Shown here: positions 9,274 to 52,066 of the stretch, in pieces
Numbering within the stretch: position 1 is the first letter of the stretch
Layout of the letters: every line of letters begins with the position of its first letter
Assembly: GCF_000620505.1 (NCBI RefSeq)
Contig: NZ_JIBC01000008.1
Location: 248,001-312,000, forward strand
DNA from: Sulfitobacter sp. 20_GPM-1509m
Lineage (GTDB): Bacteria > Pseudomonadota > Alphaproteobacteria > Rhodobacterales > Rhodobacteraceae
Direction: 5' to 3'
Length of the DNA: 64,000 nucleotides
Notes under the pieces: model-generated
The model's database searches: none
Told to the model about the DNA's origin: nothing
Seen by the model: only the letters and a program-made list of their open reading frames with translations
Program-made: the position numbers and the translations under genes

Positions 9274-10353
9274 ATGGAATTCGGCGTTTTCACACTCGCG
9301 CAACAGCGCAGCTACAATCAAAGTTCGCAGGAAGTCATCGCAAATACGGTTGAACAAACCGTTCTGGCCGAACAAGCAGGATTTGATGCGGCTTGGTCTG
9401 CCGAGCACCATTTCAACAACTATTCCCTGTCGCCCTCTCCGTTGATGACCGTCGCACATTGCGCAGGCAAAACCTCGAAAATCCGTCTCGGCACGGCAGT
9501 GTGTATCCTGCCCCTGTACCACCCGGCACGCTTCCTGGCCGAGGTTGGCTATGTCGACACTGTATCGAACGGCCGCCTAGAGCTGGGCATCGGCTCGGGC
9601 TATCAGCAGTTCGAATTTGAACGCTTCGGCACCTCGCTTGCCGACGCAGGCCCGATGTTTCAGGAATATCTGGACGTGATCCCGATGGCCCTGACACAGC
9701 AAAGCTTCGAGTATCATGGTAAATATCTGGACATTCCGCCCAGTTCGATCAGCGTCCGGTGCGTGCAGGACCCGATGCCGCCAATCTGGGTGACGACGGG
9801 CAATCCCAAAGTGCGCGAACGTGCGATGAAAGAAGGTCACAACCTGTTTGTGACCGTCCTGCACGGCGACCTCGACGCGATCCAGGGGCTGCGCACCAAA
9901 CTTGAGGAATCGGCAAGCGAAGCCGGCACCGACATCGCCGACACCAAGCTTGGTTTCCTGCGCTGCGGCTTTGCCAGCGACAACAAGGCCGAGATCGAAA
10001 GCTATCTCGACAGCGCACGATTTGCCCGCAGGTTGTCAGAAAGCCTGAAAGACCGCCGCCAGCAAACCGACGACGGCTATCTGATGCAAGAGGTGCCGCT
10101 GAACAAGGAAATGTCGCTTGATGAGATGGCGGCCAACCTGCCGGTGGGCAGCGTCAATCAGGTCATTGACCGTATGCTGGCCGAGATCGAAATTCTGAAG
10201 CCGCACCATATCGCGCTGCAGACACAGCTTGGTGATTTTGACCAGAAAACCATGCTCAAACAGATCGAACTTTGGGGCGACAAGATCATTCCGGCGATCA
10301 ACAAGGCGCTTGGCCAGGACACAGTGGCCCCCGCCAAAGTCGTGAACGGCTGA
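9274..10353 (+). CDS. LLM class flavin-dependent (luciferase-like) monooxygenase
   Basis: 359 residues; a complete bacterial luciferase-like TIM barrel. The start MEFGVFTLAQQ, then AAWSAEHHFNNYSLSPSPL near residue 38, LGTAVCILPLYHPARFLAEV near 75 and RLELGIGSGYQQFEFERFG near 105 are hallmarks. GGGAGGAACGATC gives a strong ribosome site. Family members use reduced FMN and O2, often for Baeyer-Villiger or desulfonation-type reactions. The flavin reductase starts 4 nt after its stop, so the two form a two-component system. Camphor-type diketocamphane monooxygenases belong to this family, but the substrate here is unknown. Confidence 0.93.
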   Translation: MEFGVFTLAQQRSYNQSSQEVIANTVEQTVLAEQAGFDAAWSAEHHFNNYSLSPSPLMTVAHCAGKTSKIRLGTAVCILPLYHPARFLAEVGYVDTVSNGRLELGIGSGYQQFEFERFGTSLADAGPMFQEYLDVIPMALTQQSFEYHGKYLDIPPSSISVRCVQDPMPPIWVTTGNPKVRERAMKEGHNLFVTVLHGDLDAIQGLRTKLEESASEAGTDIADTKLGFLRCGFASDNKAEIESYLDSARFARRLSESLKDRRQQTDDGYLMQEVPLNKEMSLDEMAANLPVGSVNQVIDRMLAEIEILKPHHIALQTQLGDFDQKTMLKQIELWGDKIIPAINKALGQDTVAPAKVVNG

Positions 10354-10357
10354 CGCC

Positions 10358-11176
10358 ATGCGGATCGTGGTCAAACAAAACACGCCCCCGCGCCTCGAGG
10401 CACCCGAGGATTTCAAGCGGTTTTCCATCGCATTGGATGAGCGGCTGCAAGGGACCGAAGCTTTGGCCCTCGCGCCGGTCGCGGATTTCAAATCAGAGGA
10501 AGGCACCCATGCATGGGTGCGTCCCGACGCCATCAGGGCCCTGTCCGCGATGGCAGGCGATCCGGAATGGGACGCAGGCTTTGCCGCGATGTGCGCCTTT
10601 GCCAAGGACCATGGCTGGGTCGGACCAAACGGCGGCATCCGCGCACATATCGATTATCTGCCCGAAGCGTGCCCCGTAAGCGCGGATGAGTTTCGCAGTG
10701 CCATGCGCAAATTTGCAAGCGGCGTCTGTATCGTAGCCAGCGGCAAAGGCGCAGATCGGCGCGGCATGACGGTTTCGGCCTTCTCGTCGGTTTCCGCCGA
10801 ACCGCCGATGGTTCTTGTCTGCCTCAACCGGACCTCGTCGACGCATGACGCGATCATTTCAGCCGAGGCCTTCAGCGTGAACATCCTTGGCGGATCACAA
10901 GAGGATGTGGCCATGCGCTTTGCCGGCCAAGGCGGGTTGCGCGGGGCCGACCGGTTTACCGATGACGCATGGCAAGACGCCGAAGGTGGCGCGCCGGTTC
11001 TGGCCACGTCGCACCAGTCACTGGTCTGCACCCCTGTCTCATCGCATCAGGCCGGGACGCACACCGTGTTGATCGGTCAGGTCATTGCGACCGGCGACAC
11101 TCAGGACAGTTCCGCGCTGGTCAATTACGACGGGGTGATCAAGGCCACGACGGCGCAGCCAAGCGCCATCCAATAG
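10358..11176 (+). CDS. flavin reductase with N-terminal extension
   Basis: 272 residues. The C-terminal ~165 form a HpaC/NtaB-like flavin reductase: FRSAMRKFASGVCIVAS near 113, GMTVSAFSSVSAEPPMVLVC near 138, SVNILGG near 175. The first ~105 residues are an extra, largely helical Trp/His-containing region (THAWVRPDAIRALSAMAG) not found in minimal reductases of ~170 residues. Compare the plain paralogue at 13068-13589. It supplies reduced FMN to the monooxygenase 4 nt upstream. The extension may mediate docking or be a separate small domain; this is unproven. Confidence 0.9.
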   Translation: MRIVVKQNTPPRLEAPEDFKRFSIALDERLQGTEALALAPVADFKSEEGTHAWVRPDAIRALSAMAGDPEWDAGFAAMCAFAKDHGWVGPNGGIRAHIDYLPEACPVSADEFRSAMRKFASGVCIVASGKGADRRGMTVSAFSSVSAEPPMVLVCLNRTSSTHDAIISAEAFSVNILGGSQEDVAMRFAGQGGLRGADRFTDDAWQDAEGGAPVLATSHQSLVCTPVSSHQAGTHTVLIGQVIATGDTQDSSALVNYDGVIKATTAQPSAIQ

Positions 11177-11300: not shown

Positions 11301-12935
11301 TCACTCTGCGGTCTCCACCGCGCGCTGTTGAAACGAAAAATCGGCATAGTCGTTCTGTTTCGCCGCCTCGCAATACTCGCGGTATTTGTTGAACCCGCCG
11401 ACAAACATGGTCAATCCAGTCGGCTTGCCCTTTACATTGGACCCTACCCACCACGTGTTCGCCTTGCGCACCAGCGACTTTTCGGCAAGCTCCGCGACAA
11501 CCTTCATCCAGCGATCTTCGGCGGTCAGCGTGGGCTCGATCGACGCAAGGCCCGCTTTGGCCATATGGGTTGTCACATCGGCAATCCAGTCCACGTCGTT
11601 TTCACTGATCGAGATGATATTGGCCAGGGCCGCGGGGCCGTTCGGACCACAGGTGGAAAACAGGTTCGGAAATCCTTCGATCATCAGCCCCAGATAGGAC
11701 CGCGGTCCACTTTGCCATTTTTCCTTCAAGGTGCGCCCGTCGCGCCCCACCACATCAAAGGCCAGCAGCGCACCAGTCAGCGCATCATAACCGGTCGCGA
11801 AAATCAGAATGTCCAGTTCCGTCTCGCCATCCTCGGTGCGGATGCCCTTTTCGGTGATTTCCACGATGGGATCGGTCAGACAGTCCTTCAGGTGGACGTT
11901 TGGCAGATTGTAGGTCTCGTAATATTCCGTATCCAGACAAGGACGGCGCGCGAAAATAGGATAACCGCGTGGCTTCAATGCCTCGGCGGCCTTGGGATCG
12001 TCCACGATCTCGCCGATCTTTTCACGCACGAAATCCGCAACCTGGTCATTGGCTTCCTGGTTCGACAACAGGTCAGAGAACGCCGCCAGAAAAGTGTGCC
12101 CGCCATCCTGCCAGGCATGTTCCATCACATCGCGACGTTGCGATGGCGGCAGACTGAAAAACGGACGTGTGGACACCGGACGTGTGCCGCCGGTGGGGTT
12201 CATTTTCATCGCCGCGCGCATGGCGGGGTAATGACGCTTCATCTCTTTGACATAGGCATCGTCAAGATCGTGGTTGCGCATCGGCAGCGTCCAGCTGGGC
12301 GTGCGCTGATAGACGAACAGTTCCCCGGCCTGCCGCCCGACCTCTTGCACGATCTGGATGCCCGACGACCCGGTGCCGATCAAACCAACGCGCTTGCCGG
12401 CAAAGTCGATTTTCTCGTGCGGCCATTTCTGCGCCCGCAGAATTCGCCCCTTGAACCGGTCGATGCCGTCAATGTCGGGGTCCTTGGGAACGGAAAGCGG
12501 ACCAGTGGACATGATGCAGAAAGGTGCCTCCAGCACGTCGCCCTTATTGGTTGTGACGCGCCAGATTTTTTCGGCCTCGTCCCAGATGGCGCTGGCGACC
12601 CGCGTTTCGAACCGGAAGCTCTTGCGCAGATCCAGCCGGTCCGCGACAAAATTCGCATAGGCCAGAATTTCGGGCTGGGCTGCAAACTGTTCGGACCAGG
12701 TCCATTCCTGTTGGATCTCATCGGAAAACCCGTAAGAGTAATCGACACTCATCAAATCACATCGCGCGCCCGGATAGCGGTTCCAGTACCACACACCGCC
12801 GACGTCACCACCTGCCTCGATACCGACCACATCATGGCCCATTTCGCGGAACTTGTGGACGGCATACATGCCGCCAAATCCGGCGCCGACAACGATCATG
12901 CCCACGCGTTCTGCTGGTTTGGAAGATTTCATCAT
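11301..12935 (-). CDS. Baeyer-Villiger-type flavin-containing monooxygenase
   Basis: 544 residues from an ATG at 12935 with GAGG 5 nt upstream. Two Rossmann motifs are visible: VVGAGFGGMY near residue 17 (FAD) and LIGTGSSGIQ near 186 (NADPH). Between them the type I BVMO fingerprint reads FKGRILRAQKWP near 161: F, G, W and P are in register but the signature His is Arg. IFATGYDALTGAL, near two thirds, is the usual FAD-proximal segment. Expected role: oxygen insertion next to a ketone to give an ester or lactone. It is the last gene of a cluster with an SMP-30 lactonase-like protein, supporting a cyclic ketone substrate. Confidence 0.9.
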   Translation of the reverse strand: MMKSSKPAERVGMIVVGAGFGGMYAVHKFREMGHDVVGIEAGGDVGGVWYWNRYPGARCDLMSVDYSYGFSDEIQQEWTWSEQFAAQPEILAYANFVADRLDLRKSFRFETRVASAIWDEAEKIWRVTTNKGDVLEAPFCIMSTGPLSVPKDPDIDGIDRFKGRILRAQKWPHEKIDFAGKRVGLIGTGSSGIQIVQEVGRQAGELFVYQRTPSWTLPMRNHDLDDAYVKEMKRHYPAMRAAMKMNPTGGTRPVSTRPFFSLPPSQRRDVMEHAWQDGGHTFLAAFSDLLSNQEANDQVADFVREKIGEIVDDPKAAEALKPRGYPIFARRPCLDTEYYETYNLPNVHLKDCLTDPIVEITEKGIRTEDGETELDILIFATGYDALTGALLAFDVVGRDGRTLKEKWQSGPRSYLGLMIEGFPNLFSTCGPNGPAALANIISISENDVDWIADVTTHMAKAGLASIEPTLTAEDRWMKVVAELAEKSLVRKANTWWVGSNVKGKPTGLTMFVGGFNKYREYCEAAKQNDYADFSFQQRAVETAE

Positions 12936-12963
12936 CAAGACCTCGATCCTAATTTTTTCTGAA

Positions 12964-13067: not shown

Positions 13068-13589
13068 CTATTCGGGCGCCACACGGCGGAAAAATCCGTC
13101 GCGGTACAGCAATGCGCTGTCTTCAGTGCAGGCAACCGCGACGACGCGACCGAACAAGACCTCGTGTGCGCCGCAGGCCATGGATTTTTCCAACACACAA
13201 TCAAAGCTGCTCAGGGCGTCCGGCAGCACCGGCGCGCCGGTCACAAATTTTGTCCATGTACCTGCACCCATCCGTGTCTCGCCGGATAACCCCCGCGTGG
13301 AAAACGCCCGCGCCAGGCTTGAGTGCGCGTCGCTCAGGAAATTGACCGCGAATATCCCCGAACTCTGGATCAGGTGCAGCGCGCTTGCTTTGCGGTTCAC
13401 ACAGACCAGGATTGTCGGGGGCATGGTCGTGGCCGAACAGATCGCGGTCGCAGTGAGCCCGTCGCGCTCGGTTTGTGATTGCGTGGTCACCACGGCGACC
13501 GAAGACACCACACGCCGCATGGCATGTTTGTATTCGGCAGGCGACACGGTTTCTGTGTCCGCTGGGTTGGACATTGGTTCTGGCGTCAT
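13068..13589 (-). CDS. flavin reductase family protein
   Basis: 173 residues, a single-domain HpaC/NtaB-type reductase: YKHAMRRVVSSVAVVTTQ near 20, GLTATAICSATTMPPTILVC near 44, FAVNFLSD near 82, and the C-terminal LLYRDGFFRRVAP typical of the family. The ATG at 13589 has AGGGCAGG upstream; an in-frame ATG at 13574 is possible. It lies 28 nt after the SnoaL-like gene. Since class A BVMOs carry their own NADPH site, its partner is unclear; it may serve the luciferase-like enzyme or an enzyme outside the window. Confidence 0.9.
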   Translation of the reverse strand: MTPEPMSNPADTETVSPAEYKHAMRRVVSSVAVVTTQSQTERDGLTATAICSATTMPPTILVCVNRKASALHLIQSSGIFAVNFLSDAHSSLARAFSTRGLSGETRMGAGTWTKFVTGAPVLPDALSSFDCVLEKSMACGAHEVLFGRVVAVACTEDSALLYRDGFFRRVAPE

Positions 13590-13617: not shown

Positions 13618-14148
13618 TCAATTCCCCGCGTCCGCGGCGATGTGATAGACAGGATCGTCCGGGTAAGACCCGCCAATCGGGGTCCGCGGGCCAAACCGGT
13701 CCTGTTCGCTTTGCGCGGGCGGGTCCTGGGGTGCGACCCAGTCATAGACAACCGTGCGCCGCAGCACGCGCCATTCCTGGCCGCGCTTTTCGAACAGGTC
13801 GCAGTACCGGCCGCACAACTGAACCTGACGCAGCACGCCGTCCGCTCCGGTGCCACGCTGGAAAGCAATGAAATAGGTTTCCACGTCCGCACGCGTATCC
13901 GACGTAAATTCGACCATGATATTGCCGACGTTGTGGATGTTGCGCGGACCGTTGGCCCATACTTTGCGCACCTGTTCGATGAAACCCGACACAGGCCCGG
14001 AATAGGCCCCGTGACTGTCATGCGCGTCGGGCCAGTATGAGGACACAAGTGCTGCTTCGTCAGCGCGGTCAATCCCGCGACAATAGCGATGGATGCAATC
14101 GCGGATCGCATCCTTGTCCAGCAGTGCACGAAGGGCAGCGTCTGTCAT
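13618..14148 (-). CDS. SnoaL-like / NTF2-fold protein
   Basis: 176 residues with the SnoaL_4 signature: KDAIRDCIHRYCRGIDRAD near residue 12, and HNVGNIMVEF near 70. The fold covers small dehydratases, isomerases and cyclases acting on polycyclic or steroid-like substrates, and also ring-hydroxylase small subunits; no alpha subunit gene is nearby. The ATG overlaps the stop of the acyl-CoA synthetase gene (ATGA). The C-terminal ~25 residues, rich in Pro and Asp, extend beyond the domain. Function within the pathway is open. Confidence 0.86.
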   Translation of the reverse strand: MTDAALRALLDKDAIRDCIHRYCRGIDRADEAALVSSYWPDAHDSHGAYSGPVSGFIEQVRKVWANGPRNIHNVGNIMVEFTSDTRADVETYFIAFQRGTGADGVLRQVQLCGRYCDLFEKRGQEWRVLRRTVVYDWVAPQDPPAQSEQDRFGPRTPIGGSYPDDPVYHIAADAGN

Positions 14149-16247
14149 GAGGGTTCTCCATCTTTGAGTTCAATCAGCGCATCCAATGCGATCACACCCT
14201 GCCCCCGTGGCATCACCCGAACTGGGTTCAGGTCAATTCCGGCGATACGGGTCCGGTTTGCAGCGGCAAACATCGACACCTGCGACAGCAGCTGCGCCAG
14301 CGCATCGACATCGGCTGGCGGTGCGCCCCGCACCCCTTCAAGCAGCGCATAGCCCTTGATCTCGCGGATCATGCGGTGGGCCTCGGCCACCCCGAACGGG
14401 GCTACACGAAAGGTCACATCCTTCAGAACCTCGACGAACACCCCGCCAAGTCCGAACATGACCACCGGACCAAAAGACGGATCGTCATGGACGCCAACAA
14501 TGGTTTCGACGCCGCCCGCCAGCATGGCAGAAACCAGAACACCTTCGATCTCGGCATCGGGGGCGGCCTTGCGCACCCTTTCCAACATTTCGTCGGTGGC
14601 CCGCTGGACCGAGACTGCATCCGCCAGGTTCAGGACGACCCCACCGATCTCTGTCTTGTGTGCAATGTCTGGCGAGCAGATTTTCAGCACAACCGGGAAC
14701 CCAATCCGTTTCGCTTCCTGCGCTGCCTCGGACCCGTTGCGCACCAGCGCCTCTTCCGCGAACCTCACACCTGCGGTGCGCAAGACGGATTTGGCGGTGG
14801 CTTCGCTCATACGCCCCCGGGGCAGCTCCGTAGCGGTTCCGGGTTTGGGTTGCGGGTCATTGCGGTCGAAAGCGTCGGCAAATGCGGCCAGCGCGCCAAA
14901 GGATTTGGCCAGTGCCCCGCCGTCTTCGTAGACAAGAAAGCCATCGGCCTCATAGTCAGCCACCACATTGCGCGGCGCGGACATGGTCAGGCCTCGAATG
15001 GACCTGTCATGCCCTGCGAGCCCCGCCATCAACGCCTTGCGCAAAGGTTTTGAAAAACTGTCCGACGCAGGCCCGGTTCCAAGGATGGCGCTGAACATAT
15101 CATAGCCCCCCTTGTCCATCATCGACTGAACGAAGGCTGTCAGAATGCTCATGTCGCTGACGGCTTGTGCCGTGGCATCAACGGGATTGACCGGCGACGC
15201 ATAGGGCAACAGCGCCTTCAACTCGGCCTGAGCGGTGTCGGGCATCGGGGCCACATCCAGACCCGCCGCGGTGAAGTCATCCGCAAGCTGAATGCCAAAA
15301 CCACCGGACATCGTGAAAATTCCGGTCTTGTTCCCCTTGGGGAACACCCCCCCCGCGGCGGCATAGGCAATGTCGATCTGGTCTGCCGTCGTCATCGCAC
15401 GATAGGCGCCGTATTGGCGCAGAACCGCATCAAATACGTCATCCGAACCGGCAAGCGACGCCGTGTGCGACGCAGCCGCGCGCGCACCGACTTCGGTGCG
15501 GCCGGTTTTCATGAAGACAACAGTCTTGTTTGCTGCGCGCGCCCGTTCAAGAGCCGCGCGGAAACGGTCGCCATTGCCGATCCCTTCGGCATAGGCCATG
15601 ACCACACGCGTTTCAGGCTGGGCCACAACATGGTCCAACGCTTCGGCCAGCGAGATGTCCATCTCGTTGCCCGTGGTGATCCACTGGCTGATGCCCAGGC
15701 CCCGCTCCCGTACAAGGTGCGCGATATGCGAGCCATAGGCCCCACTTTGCGACACGATGCCCACCGGACCGGGTGCCAGAAAAGCACCGTCCAGAACCAC
15801 AGAAAACGTACCGTAATACCCCAATGCCGGGTTCATGACCCCCAGGCAGTTCGGACCCAGCAACCGCATTCCACCCGCGCGTGCCACGGCTGCGATTTCG
15901 GCCTGAAGCGCTTCACCCTCTGCGCCTGCTTCGGAAAACCCAGCCGAAAAGACGATGGCCGAGGGAATGCCCTTTTCCACACAATCCTTCACCGCCGCCA
16001 GTGTCACCGCCGCAGGCACGGCCAGAATCGCGGTGTCGGGCACTTCTGGCAGATCAAGGACGCTGGCATAGGCTTTCAGGCCTTGAACCGTCTCGCGCTT
16101 TGGATTGACCGGATAGATTGTCCCGGCGAACCCCGCCTCGCGCATATAGCGCAATGGACGCCCGCCAATGCGTTTCACGTCATCAGACGCACCAATGACA
16201 GCCACACTGCGTGGCGAAATCAGCGACTGCAAGCCCTGGCGCTCCAT
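14145..16247 (-). CDS. acyl-CoA synthetase, NDP-forming (fused alpha-beta)
   Basis: 700 residues, the same architecture as 2635-4776: CoA-binding domain (SVAVIGASDDVKRIGG near 14), GPNCLGVMNP near 132, phosphohistidine loop ASHTASLAG (His about 261), C-terminal ATP-grasp with HKTEIGGVVLNL. The start ATG GAG at 16247 is preferred for its AGGA 5 nt upstream; ATGs at 16253 and 16262 overlap or abut the SMP-30 stop. It activates a carboxylate, probably the acid freed by lactone or ester opening, at ATP cost. This substrate assignment is inference. Confidence 0.91.
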   Translation of the reverse strand: MERQGLQSLISPRSVAVIGASDDVKRIGGRPLRYMREAGFAGTIYPVNPKRETVQGLKAYASVLDLPEVPDTAILAVPAAVTLAAVKDCVEKGIPSAIVFSAGFSEAGAEGEALQAEIAAVARAGGMRLLGPNCLGVMNPALGYYGTFSVVLDGAFLAPGPVGIVSQSGAYGSHIAHLVRERGLGISQWITTGNEMDISLAEALDHVVAQPETRVVMAYAEGIGNGDRFRAALERARAANKTVVFMKTGRTEVGARAAASHTASLAGSDDVFDAVLRQYGAYRAMTTADQIDIAYAAAGGVFPKGNKTGIFTMSGGFGIQLADDFTAAGLDVAPMPDTAQAELKALLPYASPVNPVDATAQAVSDMSILTAFVQSMMDKGGYDMFSAILGTGPASDSFSKPLRKALMAGLAGHDRSIRGLTMSAPRNVVADYEADGFLVYEDGGALAKSFGALAAFADAFDRNDPQPKPGTATELPRGRMSEATAKSVLRTAGVRFAEEALVRNGSEAAQEAKRIGFPVVLKICSPDIAHKTEIGGVVLNLADAVSVQRATDEMLERVRKAAPDAEIEGVLVSAMLAGGVETIVGVHDDPSFGPVVMFGLGGVFVEVLKDVTFRVAPFGVAEAHRMIREIKGYALLEGVRGAPPADVDALAQLLSQVSMFAAANRTRIAGIDLNPVRVMPRGQGVIALDALIELKDGEPS

Positions 16248-16254
16248 AATCATC

Positions 16255-17145
16255 CTATCCATTCTGACCAAACCTCGGCTCTGTGCGTCCGGTGACGCCC
16301 AGCCCCTCAAGGGCAAACAGGTATCCACCGTGGGGATGGCGTGACACGGCACGTCCGGTGCCGGAATCCTTGATAGAGGTCATGAACAGGGTCGACATGT
16401 CCGGCCCGCCAAAGGTGATGCAGCTGGGCATATCGACGGGGGCGTCGATCAGCCGGTCCAGCGTGCCGTCCGGCGCAAACCGCCCGATTTTTCCCGCCTG
16501 GACCAATGCCACCCAGATGAAACCTTCGGAATCGACCGTCGCACCGTCCGGGCCGGAGTTGTAATCCTTGGTGTTCACCAGAATGCGCGGTTCGGTCAGC
16601 GGCTCGGGTTCGGCTGCGTAATGATAGGCGCGTATCTGTCGGTCCAGGCTGTCGGCAAAATACAAGGTGCCGCCGTCCGGGCTGAAACACACCGAATTCG
16701 AGATGCGGATACCATTGGCAAGACACTCTTTCGTCTTGTCAGCCGAGATGCGCACAAGCTCGGCAACCGGTTCGGCAAAAACGCCCATGGTGCCGCAGAC
16801 AAAGCGGCCCTGATGATCCACCTTGCCGTCATTGAAACGAACCCGCGCATCAACGGGATCTGGCCGGTACAACGGTTCCAGAGCGGCCGTTTCCAGCGTG
16901 ACGATATAAATCCCGTCAGCCAGTCCGACGACCAGCTTTCCGTGATCCATGGTCAATGCGATCGAGCCGATCATCGACGGCATTTCCACCGACCCGAACT
17001 GGTCCTCCGCATAGTCAAGGAACCGGATCAGACGCTTGACCCCGTCAACCCAGTAGAGACGTCCGATCCGGTCGTCCCAGATCGGGCTTTCCCCAAGTTG
17101 GTCGGGCGAAGGCGAAATGCGCGTGGCTGTAACAGTAAGAATCAT
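16255..17145 (-). CDS. SMP-30/gluconolactonase-like lactonase
   Basis: 296 residues, a six-bladed propeller of the SMP-30/gluconolactonase/LRE family. LGESPIWDDRIGRLYWVD near 15 carries the metal Glu; RFNDGKVDHQGRFVCGTMG near 97, SNSVCFSPDGGTLYFADS near 145 and GPDGATVDSEGFIWVALV near 195 are the classic loops. The ATG at 17145 starts the domain directly; no strong ribosome site is visible. These Ca/Zn enzymes hydrolyse lactones. Together with the BVMO 3.3 kb downstream it suggests ring opening of a lactone. A hairpin separates it from the upstream binding-protein gene. Confidence 0.92.
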   Translation of the reverse strand: MILTVTATRISPSPDQLGESPIWDDRIGRLYWVDGVKRLIRFLDYAEDQFGSVEMPSMIGSIALTMDHGKLVVGLADGIYIVTLETAALEPLYRPDPVDARVRFNDGKVDHQGRFVCGTMGVFAEPVAELVRISADKTKECLANGIRISNSVCFSPDGGTLYFADSLDRQIRAYHYAAEPEPLTEPRILVNTKDYNSGPDGATVDSEGFIWVALVQAGKIGRFAPDGTLDRLIDAPVDMPSCITFGGPDMSTLFMTSIKDSGTGRAVSRHPHGGYLFALEGLGVTGRTEPRFGQNG

Positions 17146-17167
17146 GTCATGTCCGCTTAGGAGAAAT

Positions 17168-17193
17168 GTGCGGCCCGATTGTCCGGGCCGCAC
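17168..17193 (-). promoter_or_regulatory. intercistronic stem-loop after the Liv-type binding protein gene
   Basis: GTGCGGCCCG (17168-17177) pairs perfectly over 10 bp with 17184-17193, loop of 6 nt, beginning 6 nt after the binding-protein stop. No U-run follows; the next cistron begins 23 nt on. It probably protects the upstream mRNA or partly terminates. Confidence 0.6.
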
Positions 17194-17199
17194 GTTGGA

Positions 17200-18420
17200 T
17201 CAGTTGTTGACCAACGGGCATTCGCTTTCAGAAAGCGGGCGCCAGATATCTGCGGCAGGCAGGGTGCCGATGACCTTGTAGTAATCCCAAGGATATTCGG
17301 ACTCGGCTGGCGTCTTGACCTGAACCTGCAACATGTCGCGCAGGACAACACCGTCTTCGCGGATGGTTGCTTGTGTGAACACATCGTCGACCGGCAATTC
17401 GCGCATGCTGGCCATCACATCAGGCCCTGCATCCGACCCCGTTGCTTCGACCGCCTTGAGATAATGGTTCACCGCAGAATAGGTCACGGTCTGGGATTCA
17501 TTCGGCTTGCGGTCGCCCATCTGTGCGCTCCACCGCTCGGAAAAAGCGCGCGCCTCGTCGCTTTGGTCCCAATAGGCCGGGGCCGAGGCAACCAGTCCCT
17601 GCATCGTTTCCAGACCGATGCCATGCACGTTGTTCACCTGCATACCCAAGGGCGCCAGAACCTGACCCGCATCAGCGATCCCGAACTCGCGCGCCTGTTT
17701 CAGCACGTTGGCAAGATCAGCACCCGCGTTGGCAATGCCAATCACTTTGGCGCCACTGGCCTGTGCTTGCAGCAACTGTGACGAAAAATCGTTGGTCCCA
17801 AGCGGGTGCAGGATCGAGCCAACGACCTTGCCGCCGTTTTCCTCGATAAACTTGGTCGCGTCTTCCTGCCACTGCTTGCCAAAGGTGTAATCGACGGTGA
17901 TGAAATACCACTCGTCCAGACCCTGCGCGAGCTGTGCCATCACCGAACCCTTGGCCAGCGTATAGGTGTCATAGGCCCAGTTGGTGCCATAGGGCGTGCA
18001 TTTGGCGTTGGTTGTGTCCGACGTCGCGGTGCCTGCGATCAGGTAAGGTTTTTCGTGGGTGTTCATCACATCCTGAACCGCCAGGGCGATGGACGACGCC
18101 GAACATCCGACGATCACGTCGACACCTTCCTGTTCGATCCATTTCAGGGCCTGCGCGACACCGATGTCGGGCTTGTTCTGGTCATCGGCAACGACAACTT
18201 CGACTGGCATCCCGTTGATTGCACCACCGTGATCGTCAACGGCCAGTTTGACCGCAGCAACCGATCCCGCACCGCAGTTGTCGGCATAGGGGCCGGACTG
18301 GTCATTCATCACGCCGATCTTGATGACGCCGTTCGAAATGTCCGCCTGACCCTGCGACGCAACAAGTGTCATCGCCGCAATCACGGCGGCCATATGGCTG
18401 CATTTTACTTTGGTTTTCAT
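17200..18420 (-). CDS. Liv-type ABC transporter substrate-binding protein
   Basis: 406 residues from an ATG with GGGAGGAAAAATA upstream; an earlier in-frame start lacks support. A signal peptide (cleavage near SQGQA) precedes a type I periplasmic fold: VIKIGVMNDQSGPYAD near 32, DVIVGCSASSIALAVQDVM near 105. These LivK-family proteins bind branched-chain amino acids but often aromatic or alicyclic acids in catabolic clusters. It is split from its permeases (LivG/F/H/M at 20302-23582) by an SDR and the IclR gene. It is followed by a strong stem-loop. Confidence 0.93.
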   Translation of the reverse strand: MKTKVKCSHMAAVIAAMTLVASQGQADISNGVIKIGVMNDQSGPYADNCGAGSVAAVKLAVDDHGGAINGMPVEVVVADDQNKPDIGVAQALKWIEQEGVDVIVGCSASSIALAVQDVMNTHEKPYLIAGTATSDTTNAKCTPYGTNWAYDTYTLAKGSVMAQLAQGLDEWYFITVDYTFGKQWQEDATKFIEENGGKVVGSILHPLGTNDFSSQLLQAQASGAKVIGIANAGADLANVLKQAREFGIADAGQVLAPLGMQVNNVHGIGLETMQGLVASAPAYWDQSDEARAFSERWSAQMGDRKPNESQTVTYSAVNHYLKAVEATGSDAGPDVMASMRELPVDDVFTQATIREDGVVLRDMLQVQVKTPAESEYPWDYYKVIGTLPAADIWRPLSESECPLVNN

Positions 18421-18481
18421 TATTTTTCCTCCCGGTTTTATGAACACAGACCTCCTCAGCCTGTGCGATATTCCCCACGCC

Positions 18482-19240
18482 TCAGGAAAAGGCGTAGGTT
18501 ATTCCTCCATCCACGAAAATCATGTCGCCGGTGATGAAAGACGCCTCCTCGGACGCCAGAAACACCGCTGCATTTGCCATATCGGCAGGTTGCCCCAGCC
18601 GCCGGATCGGAATGCGCTCGCGCCGCCGTTCCCACCCCTCGTCCGTAACCACACGCATCGCGCCGTCGGTCTGCGTTGGCCCGGGTGCGATGGCCGTGAC
18701 CCGGACGTTATCAGGACCGAATTCCGCGGCACCGGAGCGGGTGGCAGCGGCAACGGCAGCCTTGATCGCGCTGTACATAATACCGTGCTTCATCGCGAGG
18801 ACGGCAGAGGGTGACGCGATATTGACGATCGCGCCTCCTCCGGCTTCGCGCATCTGCGGCAGCACCGCCTGATAGCCCCAGATGACCCCCTTGAAGCCGA
18901 CGTCGATCATCCGGCCGATCATCGTTTCGTCTTGATCTTCCAGTGGCCCGTACCGGTTCCACATCGCGTTGTTGACCAGCAGTGTGACCGGCCCGAATGC
19001 CTGTTTCAGCTTTGCCGCGGCTTCAAAGACATCCGCACGCAGTGCCGCATTGCCAACCAGGGCAACCGCCTGTCCGCCGGCCTCCTGAATGGCCGCGACC
19101 GTGGCCTCGGCCAATTCGGGTTTCAGGTCGAAAACCCCAACGGCGGCGCCTTCACGGGCATAGGCCTCGCAGATGGCGCGCCCGATGCCAAGACCGCCAC
19201 CGGTCACCAACGCAACCTTACCCTCAAGCCGCTTGCTCAT
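18482..19240 (-). CDS. SDR family oxidoreductase
   Basis: 252 residues from the ATG at 19240 with GGGAGA upstream. TGGGLGIG near 13, VNNAMWNRYG near 90, and YSAIKAAVAAAT near 157 (Tyr and Lys of YxxxK) are present; the C-terminus FITGDMIFVDGGITYA is canonical. The catalytic-Ser segment reads NIASPSAVL. The segment after NNA (W.RY, then RM...GF...IWG.QA) matches the SDR at the left edge closely, so these are paralogues. It is the first gene of the minus-strand cluster reaching the BVMO, and probably oxidises an alcohol to the ketone the BVMO uses. Confidence 0.93.
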   Translation of the reverse strand: MSKRLEGKVALVTGGGLGIGRAICEAYAREGAAVGVFDLKPELAEATVAAIQEAGGQAVALVGNAALRADVFEAAAKLKQAFGPVTLLVNNAMWNRYGPLEDQDETMIGRMIDVGFKGVIWGYQAVLPQMREAGGGAIVNIASPSAVLAMKHGIMYSAIKAAVAAATRSGAAEFGPDNVRVTAIAPGPTQTDGAMRVVTDEGWERRRERIPIRRLGQPADMANAAVFLASEEASFITGDMIFVDGGITYAFS

Positions 19241-19318
19241 AAGTTCTCCCTTCAGAACCTCTGCCCCGGCACAGGTGTCCCTGCAGCCGGTGGTCCAGAC
19301 ATTGTTTGATCTGATATC

Positions 19319-19344
19319 GCGCGGCGCCCCCTGCGGGGCTGCGC
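19319..19344. other. GC-rich hairpin in the SDR/IclR divergent region
   Basis: GCGC-GGC-GCCCC at 19319-19330 folds on GGGGC-T-GCGC at 19335-19344 with a CTGC loop. It lies between the SDR start and the IclR promoter. It could be 5' UTR structure or a regulator site. Confidence 0.3.
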
Positions 19345-19426
19345 ACGACGTATTCTCCTTCGGCGGTGCGCGCATTTTGCGGATATGCAGTCGGCCGATT
19401 TCCCGCCCCCAGTCTCACATGCCGCG

Positions 19427-19455
19427 TTGAACAGGGCCACGAATATTGATATATG
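19427..19455 (+). promoter_or_regulatory. candidate sigma70 promoter for the IclR gene
   Basis: TTGAAC at 19427-19432 and TATATG at 19450-19455 with 17 nt spacing, about 45 bp before the GTG start. Both hexamers are near consensus. Confidence 0.45.
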
Positions 19456-19499
19456 GAGGTAAAATTCACACTCTTGAAAAAGCGCCGAGGAGAAACACC

Positions 19500-20279
19500 G
19501 TGAGCGAGACCAAGGTAAAATCGGCGGCGCGGGCGTTCGAGGTTCTTGAATATTTCCGCATCGGACGACAGCCGCGTTCGATGTCCGAAATTGCCACGGG
19601 TCTGGACTATCCTTTGTCCAGCACGACCGTCCTGCTCAAGACATTGGTTAAGCTGGGTTATCTGAACTATGACCGGCGCGCGCGCGTGTATTTTCCGACA
19701 ACCAAGGTCACCGGACTGGGTGAGTGGATTCCCAAGACACTGTTCGGTTCGGGGCAGATAATCGACGCGATGAACGATCTGCATGCCGAAACCGGCGAAG
19801 GCATTTTCATTGGTGCCAAGAACGATATCTATCTTCAGTATATCCAGACCCGCGCGTCGATTCAGGCACTGCGGTTCCACATCGAAGAAGGAACGATCCG
19901 GCCTATCACCAAATCGATAGCCGGTCTGGTTCTGCTTGCCACCCTGCCCAAGGACAAGCTGGAAAACACCGTGCGCCGCGCCAACATCGCAACGCCCAAG
20001 GTCGCGGACCGGGTGAAGATGAAAGACATCTCCGAGCAGATCGAACAGATCCGGCAGCAGGGATATGGCTATGTCGAGGATATGCCATTTGAAGGGGGTG
20101 CCACCCTGGCGATGCTGCTGCCGGTGCTGGTTCAGGGACAACCGATCACTCTGGCGCTTGGCGGTGTGGCCGAGCGGTTCAGACGCAACCACGACCAGTA
20201 TCTCAGCGCACTGCGAAAGGCCGTCCGATCCGTTCGCACAGACCCGGATTTCAACAATCCGGTTCAGATCGAACTGTGA
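19500..20279 (+). CDS. IclR family transcriptional regulator
   Basis: 259 residues from a GTG at 19500 preceded by GAGGAG at 6 nt; an upstream in-frame TTG at 19446 lacks this support. Winged HTH: KSAARAFEVLEYF near residue 6, RSMSEIATGLDYPLSSTTVL near 24. The effector domain includes HIEEGTIRPITKSIAGLVLL near 125. It is convergent to the Liv transporter operon and divergent from the SDR-to-BVMO cluster, so it is the best candidate regulator of both. IclR proteins commonly sense aromatic or alicyclic acids. Confidence 0.93.
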   Translation: MSETKVKSAARAFEVLEYFRIGRQPRSMSEIATGLDYPLSSTTVLLKTLVKLGYLNYDRRARVYFPTTKVTGLGEWIPKTLFGSGQIIDAMNDLHAETGEGIFIGAKNDIYLQYIQTRASIQALRFHIEEGTIRPITKSIAGLVLLATLPKDKLENTVRRANIATPKVADRVKMKDISEQIEQIRQQGYGYVEDMPFEGGATLAMLLPVLVQGQPITLALGGVAERFRRNHDQYLSALRKAVRSVRTDPDFNNPVQIEL

Positions 20280-20301: not shown

Positions 20302-21231
20302 CTAGCCCTTGTTCCGGTTGCGCATACGCCGCCACAGAGCACCCGCCTCGCCGACGACACCGCGGCGCAGGAACAGGATCACCAGGATCAGGATCACGCC
20401 CTGCGCGATCAACGCCCATTCTCCGAACTGTGCCAGTTCGTCGTTCAGGAAGATAATCGCCGCCGCACCGACCATCGGCCCGGTGAACGTGCCCATTCCA
20501 CCCAGCAAGGTCATCAGAATAACCTCGCCCGAGACGGTCCATGACACATCGGTCAGCGTGGCGAACTGAAACACCGTGGCCTTCAGAGCGCCTGCAAAAC
20601 CCGCGATCCCGGCAGAGATCATCATCGCGATGATCTTGAAACGCTCGGGCCGGAAGCCCAGCGATTCAACCCGCGCTTCGTTGTCCCGGATGGCTTTCAG
20701 GATTTCACCGAAAGGCGAGTGAATGACACGGTAGATCGCGAAAATCGCCAGCGCGGTCATTGCCAGAACGAAATAGTAAAACGTCCGGCTGTCCGAGATG
20801 TCCACCAATCCAAAAAGATCCGAGCGCGGAATACCCTGCATACCATCCTCGCCGCCGGTAAAGTCGGATTGCAGCAGCATAAAGTAGACGAACTGCGCAA
20901 AGGCAAAGGTGATCATGGCAAACTGGATGCCCGTTCTGCGCACTGCGACAAAGCCCACGAAGCCCCCCAGCAGTGCTGAGACAAGAGCCGCAGCGAGGAT
21001 CGCAATCTCGATCGAAACGCCTGTCGTTTTCAGAAGATAGCCCGCGATATAGGCCGACAGCCCCAGGAACATTGCCTGCCCGAAACACAGCAGGCCGACG
21101 TATCCCAAAAGCAGGTTGAAGGACGACGCGAAGATGACAAAACACAGGATCGTCATCAGCAGGATCGGGTAGACGAAAAACGGCAATGCCAATGCGACGG
21201 CAACGCCCAACAGAACAAGTGCAATACGCAT
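20302..21231 (-). CDS. livM: Liv-type ABC transporter permease (LivM-like)
   Basis: 309 residues with about eight hydrophobic segments and the LivM-type motif ESLGFRPERFKIIAMMISAG near 185, the loop that contacts the ATPases. Its start overlaps the LivH-like stop by one base. The symbol marks the family, not the substrate: the neighbouring CoA ligase, ACADs and hydratase imply an organic acid rather than an amino acid. Confidence 0.92.
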   Translation of the reverse strand: MRIALVLLGVAVALALPFFVYPILLMTILCFVIFASSFNLLLGYVGLLCFGQAMFLGLSAYIAGYLLKTTGVSIEIAILAAALVSALLGGFVGFVAVRRTGIQFAMITFAFAQFVYFMLLQSDFTGGEDGMQGIPRSDLFGLVDISDSRTFYYFVLAMTALAIFAIYRVIHSPFGEILKAIRDNEARVESLGFRPERFKIIAMMISAGIAGFAGALKATVFQFATLTDVSWTVSGEVILMTLLGGMGTFTGPMVGAAAIIFLNDELAQFGEWALIAQGVILILVILFLRRGVVGEAGALWRRMRNRNKG

Positions 21232-22109
21232 CAGCTTTTCTCCCCGGAAAACAAACCCTTGGGCCGAAAGATCAAGGCCAGCAGCATGATGAAGAAGATG
21301 ACCAGGTTTGCGCCTTCGGGATAAAAGACCTTTGTCAGACCCTCGACGATCCCCAGCAGGTAACCTGTCAGGATCGCGCCCATGATCGACCCCATCCCGC
21401 CGATCACAACGACCGCGAAAATAGTGATCATCAACGTCGATCCCATGGACGGAGACACTTGGTAAATCGGCGCGGCCAGCACGCCGGACAGCCCCGCAAG
21501 GCCAACGCCAAAGGCATAGGTCAGCGTCACCATGCGCGGCACGTTGATGCCGAAGGATTCCACCGTTTCCGGCGATTCATTCGCTGCACGCAGATAGGCA
21601 CCCAGCTTTGTGTGTTCGATCAGCAACCATGTTCCGAGACAGGTAAAGATCGAAAACACCACGACCCAAAGCCTGTACCAAGGCATGAACATGAACCCCA
21701 GGTTCACGCCTCCCGGCAGCGGCGAACTGTACGGCAGGCCGGTCGAGCCGTAATTCAGACGCACCGCGCCTTCGATCACCAGCGTGGCGGCATAGGTCAC
21801 CAACAGACTGTACAGCGGGTCTAGATGGGCAATTGGCTTTAGGATTAATCGCTCCATCACAAGCCCGAATATCGCCACCACCACCGGGGCAATGAACAGT
21901 GCCCCCCAATAGGGCACGCCCAGCGTGCTAAGCAGCAGCCACGCCACAAAAGCGCCCAGCATATACTGCGCGCCATGGGCAAAGTTCACCACGTGCATCA
22001 GCCCGAAAATGATCGCCAGCCCCATCGCGAGCATCGCATAGAAAGAGCCGTTGATGACTCCGATCAGCAGCTGGCCGAACAACAGCTGCGGTGTGATCCC
22101 GTCAAACAT
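21231..22109 (-). CDS. livH: Liv-type ABC transporter permease (LivH-like)
   Basis: 292 residues, strongly hydrophobic; GVINGSFYAMLAMGLAIIFG near 18 and VNFAHGAQYMLGAF near 42 are LivH family marks, and ESFGINVPRMVTLTYAFGVG near 185 is the cytoplasmic coupling loop. It lies 2 nt after the LivF-like gene. It forms the translocation pore with the LivM-like protein. Confidence 0.93.
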   Translation of the reverse strand: MFDGITPQLLFGQLLIGVINGSFYAMLAMGLAIIFGLMHVVNFAHGAQYMLGAFVAWLLLSTLGVPYWGALFIAPVVVAIFGLVMERLILKPIAHLDPLYSLLVTYAATLVIEGAVRLNYGSTGLPYSSPLPGGVNLGFMFMPWYRLWVVVFSIFTCLGTWLLIEHTKLGAYLRAANESPETVESFGINVPRMVTLTYAFGVGLAGLSGVLAAPIYQVSPSMGSTLMITIFAVVVIGGMGSIMGAILTGYLLGIVEGLTKVFYPEGANLVIFFIMLLALIFRPKGLFSGEKS

Positions 22110-22111
22110 GG

Positions 22112-22831
22112 TCAGACTCCCAAATAGGTTTTGACGCGATCAAGATCGACCGCGAGTTCATCGTTCGTCAGCGTGTCCACGACCGCGCCGTTTTCGATCA
22201 CGACGTGACGGTCGGCCACCGAACGGGCGAAATTCAGGTTCTGTTCGACCAGCAGGATGGTATAACCCTGCTCTTTCAACACCCTGATCTGACGGCCAAT
22301 TTCCTTGACGACGACCGGGGCCAGACCTTCGCTGGGTTCATCCAGCAGCAGGAATCGGCAGCCGTTGCGCAGGATGCGCGCAATGGCCAGCATCTGTTGT
22401 TCACCGCCAGACAGCTGTGTGCCCCGGCTGGTGGCGCGGGCTTTCAGGTTGGGAAATGTTTCCAACAGCGTGGCGTCCGACATCCCGCCCGGTTTCAGGA
22501 TCGGGGGAAGGGTCAGATTCTCGCGCACCGAAAGATCAGCGAAAATCCCGCGTTCTTCGGGGCACCACGCAATGCCCTTGCGGGCGATCTGATAGGTGCG
22601 TTTGCCCATCAGTTCCTGTCCTTCGAACAGGATTGAACCCCGGCGATTGCGCACAATGCCCATGATCGAACGCAAGGTCGTGGACTTACCCGCTCCGTTG
22701 CGCCCGATCAGCGTGACCAGCTCCCCCTGGGCCACATCGAACGACACATCATGCAGTGCCTGACTGTCCCCATACCAGGCACGCAGGTTCTCGACCTTCA
22801 ACAGCGGGTCGGTTTTGGCATCAAAGGGCAT
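22112..22831 (-). CDS. livF: Liv-type ABC transporter ATP-binding protein (LivF-like)
   Basis: 239 residues from the ATG at 22831, chosen because GGAGG sits 7 nt upstream within the end of the LivG-like gene; an upstream in-frame GTG at 22840 is weaker. Walker A GRNGAGKST near 37, signature LSGGEQQML near 137, Walker B FLLLDEPSEGLAP near 155. It overlaps the LivG-like gene by 11 nt, indicating coupled translation. Confidence 0.93.
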   Translation of the reverse strand: MPFDAKTDPLLKVENLRAWYGDSQALHDVSFDVAQGELVTLIGRNGAGKSTTLRSIMGIVRNRRGSILFEGQELMGKRTYQIARKGIAWCPEERGIFADLSVRENLTLPPILKPGGMSDATLLETFPNLKARATSRGTQLSGGEQQMLAIARILRNGCRFLLLDEPSEGLAPVVVKEIGRQIRVLKEQGYTILLVEQNLNFARSVADRHVVIENGAVVDTLTNDELAVDLDRVKTYLGV

Positions 22832-23582
22832 CTTCGACACCTCCCATATATGCGGCGATCACACGTTCATCGGACGAAACTTCGGCATAGTTGCCTTCGG
22901 TCAGGATCTGGCCCGCCTGCAAAACAGTGATCCGGTCGGACAGCGACGACACGACGGACAGATTGTGCTCAACGATCAGAACGGTGCGCCCGACCGACAC
23001 TTTGCGGATCAGTTCGGTGATGGGCTCGATGTCCTCATGGCCCATCCCGGCGGTTGGCTCGTCCAGCAGCATCACCTGCGGATCCAGCGCCAGTGTCGTT
23101 GCAATCTCCAGCGCACGTTTCTTGCCATAGGACAGGTCCGAGGCCGCTATGTCCGCACTGTCCTGCAAGCCGACATTTTCCAGCAATTCCATCGCACGCG
23201 TGTTCAGGTGGGCAATGGACCCAAGCGGCCGCCAGAACCGGTAGGCCGTACCCTTTCCGGCCTGCAATGCGACGCGCACGTTTTCCAGCGCTGTCATCTG
23301 GGTGAAGGTGGCCGAAATCTGGAACGAGCGCGCCATGCCTTGTGTCGCCACGTCGCTGGTGCGCAAGCGCGAGATGTCCACGCCGTTCAGGATAATACTG
23401 CCGGTGCTGGGTTGCAGCGTCTTGGTCAGCAGGTTGAAACAGGTGGTTTTACCCGCCCCGTTCGGCCCGATCATCGCGTGGATAGACCCGCGCCTGACCT
23501 TGAGATCAACATCCTTCACCGCCCAAAAGGCGCCAAATTTCCGCCCAAGCCCACGTGCTTCCAGCGCATATTCTGTCGTCAT
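22821..23582 (-). CDS. livG: Liv-type ABC transporter ATP-binding protein (LivG-like)
   Basis: 253 residues from the ATG at 23582 with GGGAGGAGGGCGAACT before it. Walker A GPNGAGKTT near 39, signature LSYGKKRALEIA (LSxG with Tyr) near 145, Walker B VMLLDEPTAGMGHED near 163, as in LivG. It follows the ACAD gene by 23 nt, linking uptake and catabolism in one transcript. Confidence 0.94.
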   Translation of the reverse strand: MTTEYALEARGLGRKFGAFWAVKDVDLKVRRGSIHAMIGPNGAGKTTCFNLLTKTLQPSTGSIILNGVDISRLRTSDVATQGMARSFQISATFTQMTALENVRVALQAGKGTAYRFWRPLGSIAHLNTRAMELLENVGLQDSADIAASDLSYGKKRALEIATTLALDPQVMLLDEPTAGMGHEDIEPITELIRKVSVGRTVLIVEHNLSVVSSLSDRITVLQAGQILTEGNYAEVSSDERVIAAYMGGVEDAL

Positions 23583-23605
23583 AGTTCGCCCTCCTCCCGG
23601 GCCTG

Positions 23606-24775
23606 TCAGAACGAGCTGGGCAGGCCGAGCACTCCTTTTGCCAGAACGCCCTTTTGGATCTCGTTCGAGCCGCCAAAGATGGTCGGTGCACGGCTGTCGA
23701 GATAAAGGTTCATCGCGTCTACATCGCCTTCGCCGGTGTGAAGGTCGTCCCACAACCGGGCTTCTTCGCCCGCAACGGTCAGCATCTCTTCGGTGATCCG
23801 CTGGTACAGTTCACTGCAAAAAATCTTGAGCACGGAGACGTCGGCACCCAGCACGCCACCCGCCCGAAGGACGCGGGCAAAGCGTTCAAAGGCAGCACTC
23901 AGATCATACAGATCCAGACGCAGCTTGGCGTAGCGCGCGACAAAGCCGGGGTCGTCAAATGCACCGCGATCCTGCGCCAGACGCTCAAGCCGTTTGATCG
24001 CATATTCAGGCCGCGACGGCGCACCCAGAAAGATCCGCTCGTGACCCAAAACTGCCTTGGCCAGCGCCCAGCCCTGATCGACCTCACCCACAACATTCGC
24101 GGCGGGCACGCGCACGTTGTCAAAGAACACTTCGCAAAAGTCCGCCTCGTTCCGCAGGTTGGGAATGGGCCGCACAGTGCATCCTGCAGTGGTCATATCC
24201 ACCAGCAGAACGGTGATACCCTTCTGACGCTTGGTCTCGTCCGTGCTGGTCCGAACCAGGAGCAGGATCCAGTTCGCGCAATGCGCCAGCGTGGTCCAGA
24301 TTTTCTGGCCGTTGACGATGAAATCATCCCCGTCACGCCGCGCCGATGTGCGCAGTGACGCCAGATCAGACCCTGCGTTCGGCTCCGAATACCCCTGACA
24401 CCAGACATGTTCGCCGCTGAGAATACGGGGCAGGAAAAAGTCCTTTTGCGCCTGCGTGCCGTATTGAATCAGCAGCGGGCCGGTCAACCCGATCCCGTGG
24501 TCCGGGATACGTGGGCAACCCAACCGGGCCCATTCCTCGACATAGACAATATGCTTGCCTGCATCGAGCCCCATGCCGCCGTATTCCTGCGGCCACAATG
24601 GCGAGAGCCAGCCCTTGTCAGCCAGTGTGTGATACCACTCGGATACCTCGTTGAACACCGGCCGCTGCTTGCGCATAAAGCGCAGGTGGGTGGGGCAATT
24701 TGCCTCGACCCAACTGCGGAAAACAGCGCGGAACTGGTCGTCGCTGAGCGCATTCCAGTCCTGTTGTTCAGACAT
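23606..24775 (-). CDS. acyl-CoA dehydrogenase, large (alpha-type) subunit
   Basis: 389 residues from the ATG at 24775, which shares one base with the stop of the hydratase gene (TGATG). WCQGYSEPNAGSDLASLRT near 129, GQKIWTTLAHCANW near 160 and the C-terminal TIFGGSNEIQKGVLAKGVL are clear. As in 1445-2638 the residue before GS/GT in the C-terminal motif is not Glu, so the catalytic base is elsewhere. Its partner is probably the ACAD at 25568-26695. Operon position between hydratase and transporter supports a role in the same degradation route. Confidence 0.93.
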   Translation of the reverse strand: MSEQQDWNALSDDQFRAVFRSWVEANCPTHLRFMRKQRPVFNEVSEWYHTLADKGWLSPLWPQEYGGMGLDAGKHIVYVEEWARLGCPRIPDHGIGLTGPLLIQYGTQAQKDFFLPRILSGEHVWCQGYSEPNAGSDLASLRTSARRDGDDFIVNGQKIWTTLAHCANWILLLVRTSTDETKRQKGITVLLVDMTTAGCTVRPIPNLRNEADFCEVFFDNVRVPAANVVGEVDQGWALAKAVLGHERIFLGAPSRPEYAIKRLERLAQDRGAFDDPGFVARYAKLRLDLYDLSAAFERFARVLRAGGVLGADVSVLKIFCSELYQRITEEMLTVAGEEARLWDDLHTGEGDVDAMNLYLDSRAPTIFGGSNEIQKGVLAKGVLGLPSSF

Positions 24776-25554
24776 CACAGTTCGTCCTTGAAAACGGCGG
24801 GGCGTTTTTCAAGGAAGGCGGCCATCGCTTCCTTGCTGTGCGGGTGGCGGGTCATTTCAACCGTCAGGTTCTGCTCGAACCGGTAGCCGTCTTTCAGACC
24901 CATGGTTTCGACCGTATTCAGCGCCCGTTTGGCCAGCTGGATCGCCTTGGGCGACTTGGATGCCATGGTCTTGGCCATCTCCATCGCGGTCGGCAGCAGT
25001 TCCTCAGGCTCGACACAAGCCTCAATCAAGCCGCGACGCCAAAGTTCTTCCGCAGGGCAGCGCCAGCCGGTCAGCACCATCCGGCGCGTCAGACCGATGG
25101 GGAACACGCGCATCGTGTGACGCACGCCACCCATCAGGCCGATGTCGATCTCGGGCAGGCCAAACACGGCCTTGGTCGAACACACGATGATGTCCGCGCA
25201 GATCGCCAACCCCATGCCGGCCCCCAGCGCGGGACCGTTCACGGCCGCGATCACCGGGATATTCATCTCCATGATGACAAAGCCGATCTCCCGCGTGCGG
25301 CGCAAGTGGCGATAGGTGTCACCGGGCGCGCCATCTGCGATTTTGCCGCGCGACTTGATGTCCGCGCCGGCGGAAAAGCATTTGCCCTCGCCGGTCAGCA
25401 CGATTGCCCGTACGCCGGGTGTCTCATTCAGCTCGTCGAACACGGCTGTCAGCTCTTCGACAAACGCGCGGGACTGGGCGTTGACGGGTGCTGCGTCCAT
25501 CGTGATCAGCGCAACGTGATCTTCGATCTTAACCTTGATCAGATTGTTTTCCAT
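24775..25554 (-). CDS. enoyl-CoA hydratase/isomerase family protein
   Basis: 259 residues from the ATG at 25554 with AAAGGA upstream. Crotonase motifs: FSAGADIKSRG near 62 and AAVNGPALGAGMGLAICADI near 103 (oxyanion hole), LPEIDIGLMGGVRH near 135. It lies between the two ACAD genes. It is similar in layout to 4778-5548, consistent with two parallel acyl-CoA modules. Hydration versus isomerisation cannot be decided by eye. Confidence 0.93.
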   Translation of the reverse strand: MENNLIKVKIEDHVALITMDAAPVNAQSRAFVEELTAVFDELNETPGVRAIVLTGEGKCFSAGADIKSRGKIADGAPGDTYRHLRRTREIGFVIMEMNIPVIAAVNGPALGAGMGLAICADIIVCSTKAVFGLPEIDIGLMGGVRHTMRVFPIGLTRRMVLTGWRCPAEELWRRGLIEACVEPEELLPTAMEMAKTMASKSPKAIQLAKRALNTVETMGLKDGYRFEQNLTVEMTRHPHSKEAMAAFLEKRPAVFKDEL

Positions 25555-25567
25555 GGGTGGTTTCCTT

Positions 25568-26695: not shown

Positions 26696-26728
26696 CGCTG
26701 GTCCTTTCGACCTGTCTGCCCGTTGCCC

Positions 26729-28360: not shown

Positions 28361-28450
28361 GGAAAACTCCTCCTCAAGACAAACAGCCTCCACTCCGTTT
28401 GCGTCTTCATTTCGCCAGCAGAACAGCCCGCTGTCAAAGCAATACCCAAA

Positions 28451-37003: not shown

Positions 37004-37005
37004 TT

Positions 37006-39114: not shown

Positions 39115-39237
39115 CTCGGTTCTCTTTGGCTTGCAGGACAGAACAAAGCCCGACCGCATTGGGTCAGGTGGGCACGTAAGCCCAAGGTCAGCCTACACGC
39201 CGAAATGATCAGGTCTAATTCTTAATTTTTCTATGGG

Positions 39238-45940: not shown

Positions 45941-45953
45941 GAATACACCCGCG

Positions 45954-47354: not shown

Positions 47355-47374
47355 ATCCCTCTCCGATACAGGAC

Positions 47375-47404: not shown

Positions 47405-47414
47405 CTTTCGATTG

Positions 47415-52063: not shown

Positions 52064-52066
52064 GGA

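Follow-up and report, generated by a model that had tools for sequence, protein, structure and literature searches.

In the sections of the literature consulted here, the second fingerprint of type I Baeyer-Villiger monooxygenases (BVMOs), FxGxxxHxxxW[P/D], has been required in full for the curation of BVMO sets (PMC4498894), used as a PHI-BLAST pattern for genome screening (PMC7570161), and applied in genome screening as a 'super-hallmark' that 'certifies' a BVMO (PMC9044951). The consulted part of PMC9044951 adds that the motif can be degenerate, the data not being shown there, and that of PMC4966971 describes it as absolutely conserved, with reference to the five BVMO structures known at the time. 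Apart from the degeneracy remark in PMC9044951, no description of natural BVMO lineages without the signature His was found in the parts of the open-licence literature consulted.

The subject of this study is a BVMO-like protein encoded in a stretch of 64,000 nucleotides from Sulfitobacter sp. 20_GPM-1509m (the window, meaning the whole stretch analysed), which carries Arg in place of the signature His of the second fingerprint and, for this reason, would fall outside the type I BVMOs under the published rule as worded in the consulted parts of PMC4498894 and PMC9044951. By its fold, its catalytic residues and its position in the tree, the protein sits among type I BVMOs; the motif rule excludes it. 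The second fingerprint is soft and excludes whole lineages, and searches demanding the signature His would miss genuine relatives.

The BVMO gene and its motifs

The gene and its landmarks are listed below.

11301 to 12938, minus strand: type I BVMO-like flavin monooxygenase, 545 aa, likely start ATG at 12932 or 12935
12870 to 12887, minus strand: Rossmann motif 1 (FAD), GAGFGG
12756 to 12800, minus strand: first BVMO fingerprint, GGVWYWNRYPGARCD, whose final residue Asp61 is the equivalent of PAMO Asp66
12420 to 12455, minus strand: second fingerprint, FKGRILRAQKWP
12435 to 12437, minus strand: CGG codon of Arg168, at the position of PAMO His173
12360 to 12377, minus strand: Rossmann motif 2 (NADPH), GTGSSG
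11943 to 11945, minus strand: Arg332, equivalent of the catalytic PAMO Arg337

The length of 545 aa counts the TTG at 12938, which is followed by ATG codons at 12935 and 12932; the annotated P. pseudonitzschiae orthologue begins 6 bases into the match, corresponding to 12932 in the window. The first fingerprint, [A/G]GxWxxxx[F/Y]P[G/M]xxxD, is complete, both Rossmann motifs are intact as the sequence-only reading had stated, and phmmer aligns residues 7-534 with residues 12-539 of PAMO without a gap. Its view that the frame is not misread is confirmed. In this alignment Arg168 corresponds to His173 of PAMO, and Asp61 and Arg332 correspond to the catalytic residues Asp66 and Arg337. The replacement of the signature His by Arg, reported in the same reading, is thus real, and it is the residue at which the second fingerprint departs from the published pattern. 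The pattern of class B FMOs, FxGxxxHxxx[Y/F] with no BVMO fingerprint, does not describe the protein, which has Trp172 and the first BVMO fingerprint.

The match to PF00743 is modest, at 61.5 bits and covering residues 15-219 only. The AlphaFold model (mean pLDDT 92.8) has the PAMO/CHMO fold and matches PAMO over 531 residues with a Z score of 53.3, an rmsd of 1.2 A and 46% identity; His occupies the signature site in the PAMO entries and in 6jdk_A, the solved structures with printed alignments. The nearest named relatives, from P. pseudonitzschiae (L003/L157), are 97% identical to the window protein and also have Arg at the site. Between the window gene and L003, dN is 0.012 and dS 0.241 (dN/dS about 0.05), and dN was lower than dS in 13 of 13 pairs tested within the clade.

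The signature residue across homologues

A first search of contigs, one genome per species, returned 36 loci, 34 of them with a near-full match, in which the signature site is occupied by Arg (17), Leu (9), Tyr (3), Asn (2), Ser (1) or His (2). Further rows were added from more genomes, five of them contributed by plasmids. The resulting 163 homologues do not include the window's own row (L001), the partial rows L028 and L038, the distant L002 (28% identity) or the second, distant copy from L037. Among the matches listed, His is found in 103 of the 163 homologues kept, a query-biased set that holds same-species duplicates across collections, including protein-identical rows (L003=L157, L004=L039, L005=L163, L007=L040, L016=L164). 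The 60 rows without His have ten other residues at the site: Arg in 28, Leu in 10, Tyr in 5, Phe in 4, Ile in 3, and Val, Gln, Thr, Ser and Asn in 2 each. Whatever the signature residue, the equivalents of Asp61 and Arg332 are kept in all 163.

A class-level sample, less biased towards the window, lacked His in 13 of 90 rows among the matches listed. These rows (L068-L156) comprise 29 returned loci, 60 regions hand-chosen down the ranking among the matches listed, with reported stops and several extra same-genome copies skipped, and a neighbouring copy in L089. Close orthologues are rare: at E 1e-185, they were found in 6 of 390 genomes of the order and in 2 of 398 of the phylum, the window's own genome being counted in both. 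The sequence-only reading had proposed a search for homologues with Arg at this site, and they were found, in 28 of the 163 rows and in most of the window's subclade, with CGC, CGG and CGT as codons among the relatives. Since the nearest named relatives and most of the subclade likewise have Arg, Arg168 is neither chance nor error, and it is ordinary within its own clade.

A quick, unrooted tree of 154 rows, made with the motif columns excluded, placed the window BVMO among His-bearing homologues with the full motif, within a group of 32 rows (100% SH-aLRT) none of which has His. Between His and non-His, at least 10 changes are required on this tree, five of them forced by starred branches. 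Elsewhere in the same tree, a separate supported group of BVMO-like proteins (L078, L084, L091, L102 and L135) has Val, Ile or Phe at the signature site and is an independent case of His loss.

With plasmid and extra genome sequences added, a 52-row IQ-TREE, also made without the motif columns, gave a window clade of 41 rows with support of 100/100, a distinct lineage. Arg stands at the site in 26 of its rows, Leu in 10, Tyr in 3 and His in 2, so that 39 of the 41 retain the catalytic residues but not the signature His. Both His rows come from Variovorax plasmids (PBL-E5 and SRS16; L159 and L165, codon CAT). They are sister (100/100) to the Arg row of a plasmid from Comamonas antarctica (L158, with CGC as its codon), and this Variovorax and Comamonas branch is nested in the Arg group (97/97). 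A constraint grouping 24 Arg rows without the His pair was rejected (p-AU 8e-5). Leu and Arg rows also occur as tree neighbours (L161 with L019, 93/94), and Arg in L042 and L123 has a separate origin; the long branches of this tree include L042, L123, L160, L161, L162, L026 and L037. No root was inferred, so that parsimony favours a reversion to His in Variovorax but does not demonstrate it. The Comamonas (Arg) and Variovorax (His) orthologues form a ready natural pair for testing the role of the residue.

The window clade also deviates at other positions that are otherwise conserved, with Ala or Ser for Thr169, Met for Glu63, Gly for Ser434 and Arg for Lys331, and for this reason some functional change is possible. 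Pro147, Phe329, Arg331, Asn433 and Gly434 are present in all 32 clade rows and in the His-, Tyr- and Leu-bearing additions. Being common to members with Arg, His, Leu or Tyr, these pocket-region marks do not track residue 168, and as read from the alignment they point to a clade-specific pocket independent of it. Two candidate signals were dropped: a swap in which loop Arg507 was lost as Arg168 was gained, since L017-L019 have Arg at both positions, and the invariance of Arg as proof of special constraint, since half of the columns are invariant in the tight group concerned.

The gene neighbourhood

The BVMO gene lies in a catabolic island of about 28 kb (window 437-28393), whose relevant members are as follows.

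9274 to 11176, plus strand: luciferase-like monooxygenase and long flavin reductase, forming a module of their own next to the BVMO
13068 to 13586, minus strand: short flavin reductase
13618 to 14148, minus strand: SnoaL/NTF2-like protein
14145 to 16352, minus strand: ADP-forming acyl-CoA ligase (CoA-binding, Succ_CoA_lig, ATP-grasp_5)
16255 to 17193, minus strand: SMP-30/gluconolactonase-family lactonase (SGL), the most telling conserved neighbour
17200 to 18447, minus strand: ABC transporter substrate-binding protein (Peripla_BP_6)
18482 to 19375, minus strand: short-chain dehydrogenase (SDR), true start probably near 19240
19446 to 20279, plus strand: IclR-family regulator
20302 to 23753, minus strand: branched-chain-amino-acid-type ABC transporter, two permeases and two ATPases
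23606 to 28393, minus strand: acyl-CoA dehydrogenases, enoyl-CoA hydratase and AMP-forming CoA ligase

The BVMO cluster combines an ABC transporter, the lactonase, SDRs, the SnoaL-like protein, flavin reductases, ADP- and AMP-forming CoA ligases, acyl-CoA dehydrogenases, enoyl-CoA hydratases and the IclR regulator. The same cluster is carried by a 250 kb plasmid in P. pseudonitzschiae H46, and it can be recognised on the Comamonas and Variovorax plasmids as well (transporter, substrate-binding protein, lactonase, SDR, CoA ligases and acyl-CoA dehydrogenases), which suggests horizontal spread of the island. Of the 35 clade loci examined, 20 have a lactonase gene, among them carriers of Arg, His, Leu and Tyr, compared with 0 of 6 other loci. 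The association is incomplete, although several of the 15 clade loci that lack the gene come from contigs or fetched stretches of short length. PF08450 has only three matches in the home genome. The presence of a lactonase and beta-oxidation enzymes next to a BVMO suggests a route from a ring ketone through a lactone to a hydroxy acid. In the parts consulted of the open-licence literature on clusters of BVMOs with SMP-30 lactonases, neither a match to the cassette nor a named substrate was found, and the same holds for the parts consulted on Baeyer-Villiger chemistry in Pseudosulfitobacter or Roseobacter and for those on limonene-type pathways.

Other features of the window were observed alongside. 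The luciferase-like module is divergent to the BVMO gene and present in 7 of 35 clade loci, and its long flavin reductase has an additional N-terminal region of about 110 residues without a Pfam match. The SnoaL-like protein, whose gene lies close to that of the BVMO at 13 of 35 clade loci, weakly matches beta subunits of ring-hydroxylating dioxygenases, and no alpha subunit was present among the scanned neighbours of its gene. Further along, genes for cytochrome oxidase I and II, cytochrome c, an amino acid permease and a PQQ dehydrogenase stand in a row (40368-49874, minus strand) and could form a periplasmic alcohol oxidation chain; subunit I (854 aa) carries a long extension at its C terminus. 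Hydantoinase/oxoprolinase A and B genes adjoin DctP/DctM transporter genes (35294-39159, minus strand), and two long ORFs (51413-52609, plus strand; 58804-60114, minus strand) have no Pfam match at 1e-8.

What Arg168 may mean, and known systems

We consider it probable that the protein is a functional FAD/NADPH-dependent type I (PAMO-like) BVMO in which Arg is tolerated at the signature-His site. The grounds observed are the sequence, the fold match, the catalytic residues, the exchange of the residue within the orthologous group and the conserved neighbourhood. Among them, the interchange of Arg, His, Leu and Tyr while the catalytic residues stay the same favours a tolerated substitution in the linker as the most likely explanation, and since relatives with the same cluster carry any of these four, the signature residue looks exchangeable rather than a mark of new chemistry. 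Counting against a tolerated site, published mutants of the signature His in other BVMOs are reported to be impaired. In the mechanism we propose, NADPH would reduce FAD, O2 would then form a C4a-peroxyflavin held by Arg332 and Asp61, and the peroxide would attack a ring ketone, yielding a lactone. The SMP-30-type lactonase encoded nearby would open the lactone, and the CoA ligases and beta-oxidation enzymes would consume the opened product; both the ketone substrate and the lactone product are what we infer. The signature residue lies in the linker between the FAD and NADP domains, outside the catalytic residues, so that Arg, Leu, Tyr and His can all be accommodated with presumably modest tuning, at most, of domain motion or NADP handling, which is also our estimate of the size of any kinetic effect.

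More tentatively, the signature site may be a naturally switchable hinge position, where His, Arg, Leu and Tyr alternate with the chemistry kept while nearby changes adjust domain rotation or the handling of NADP. In that case, the hallmark motif would mark a hinge setting that is dispensable, and curated sets would have left out a sizeable fraction of genuine BVMOs.

Alternatively, Arg168 may have acquired a role, contacting NADP or the mobile loop and tuning domain rotation, coupling or NADPH/NADH preference, in an enzyme kinetically distinct and still Baeyer-Villiger. In favour of this, Arg is invariant in the 16 sequences of a tight group and was gained independently in L042 and L123. The Arg group also differs at the neighbouring residue 169 and at residues 503-511 of the loop, and Lys336 of PAMO is Arg331 in the window BVMO. 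However, those 16 sequences show no variation in 259 of 520 columns, which makes the conservation of Arg weak evidence; the clade's other marks are common to His, Leu and Tyr members, and residue 507 does not track residue 168. A subtle acquired role is possible; as an explanation of the locus we think it rather improbable.

The sequence-only reading had proposed a shift of activity towards a simple oxidase or an N/S-oxygenase, and the use of His in print as a hallmark of BVMO identity would favour it. We regard such a shift as very unlikely. The catalytic Asp and Arg are kept in every one of the 163 homologues, and His, Arg, Leu and Tyr interchange in one orthologous, partly syntenic group, in which a His branch carrying the same cassette is sister to an Arg branch. 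Moreover, the pocket-region residues of the clade do not follow the signature residue, and the lactonase and beta-oxidation neighbours fit the breakdown of a ring ketone. An Arg-bearing homologue already known as a normal BVMO, which the same reading had named as its own refutation, was not found in the parts of the open-licence literature consulted; nor was any other characterised Arg-bearing homologue, or an activity for any clade member. Finally, a sequencing or frame error, a misassembly or a decaying pseudogene, for which nothing speaks except the odd residue itself, is refuted by the open frame of 545 codons, the 97% identical orthologues with the same Arg in independent records and the dN/dS of 0.05.

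The window protein can be set beside several known systems. Steroid monooxygenase (PDB 4aos) resembles the window model with a Z score of 49.8 and about 46% identity, although nothing points to steroids as the substrate of the window gene. Cyclohexanone monooxygenases and OTEMO, the latter likewise belonging to a pathway that degrades an alicyclic compound, share the fold and the class of chemistry, but at 38-41% identity, and unlike them the window protein deviates from the published fingerprint. Limonene-type monoterpene breakdown proceeds through a monooxygenase, a dehydrogenase, a BVMO, lactone opening and CoA ligation; its logic is similar to that of the window cassette, and it serves as a substrate lead only. 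PAMO (PDB 1w4x and relatives) is alike in the whole fold, the ungapped alignment, the equivalents of Asp66 and Arg337 and both Rossmann motifs. It differs in overall sequence (46-47% identity), in having His173 where the window BVMO has Arg, in the Lys336 noted above, and in Gln152, Ile67 and Ser441, at positions which we take to line the pocket and which, numbered by the +5 offset, are Pro147, Leu62 and Ala436 in the window protein.
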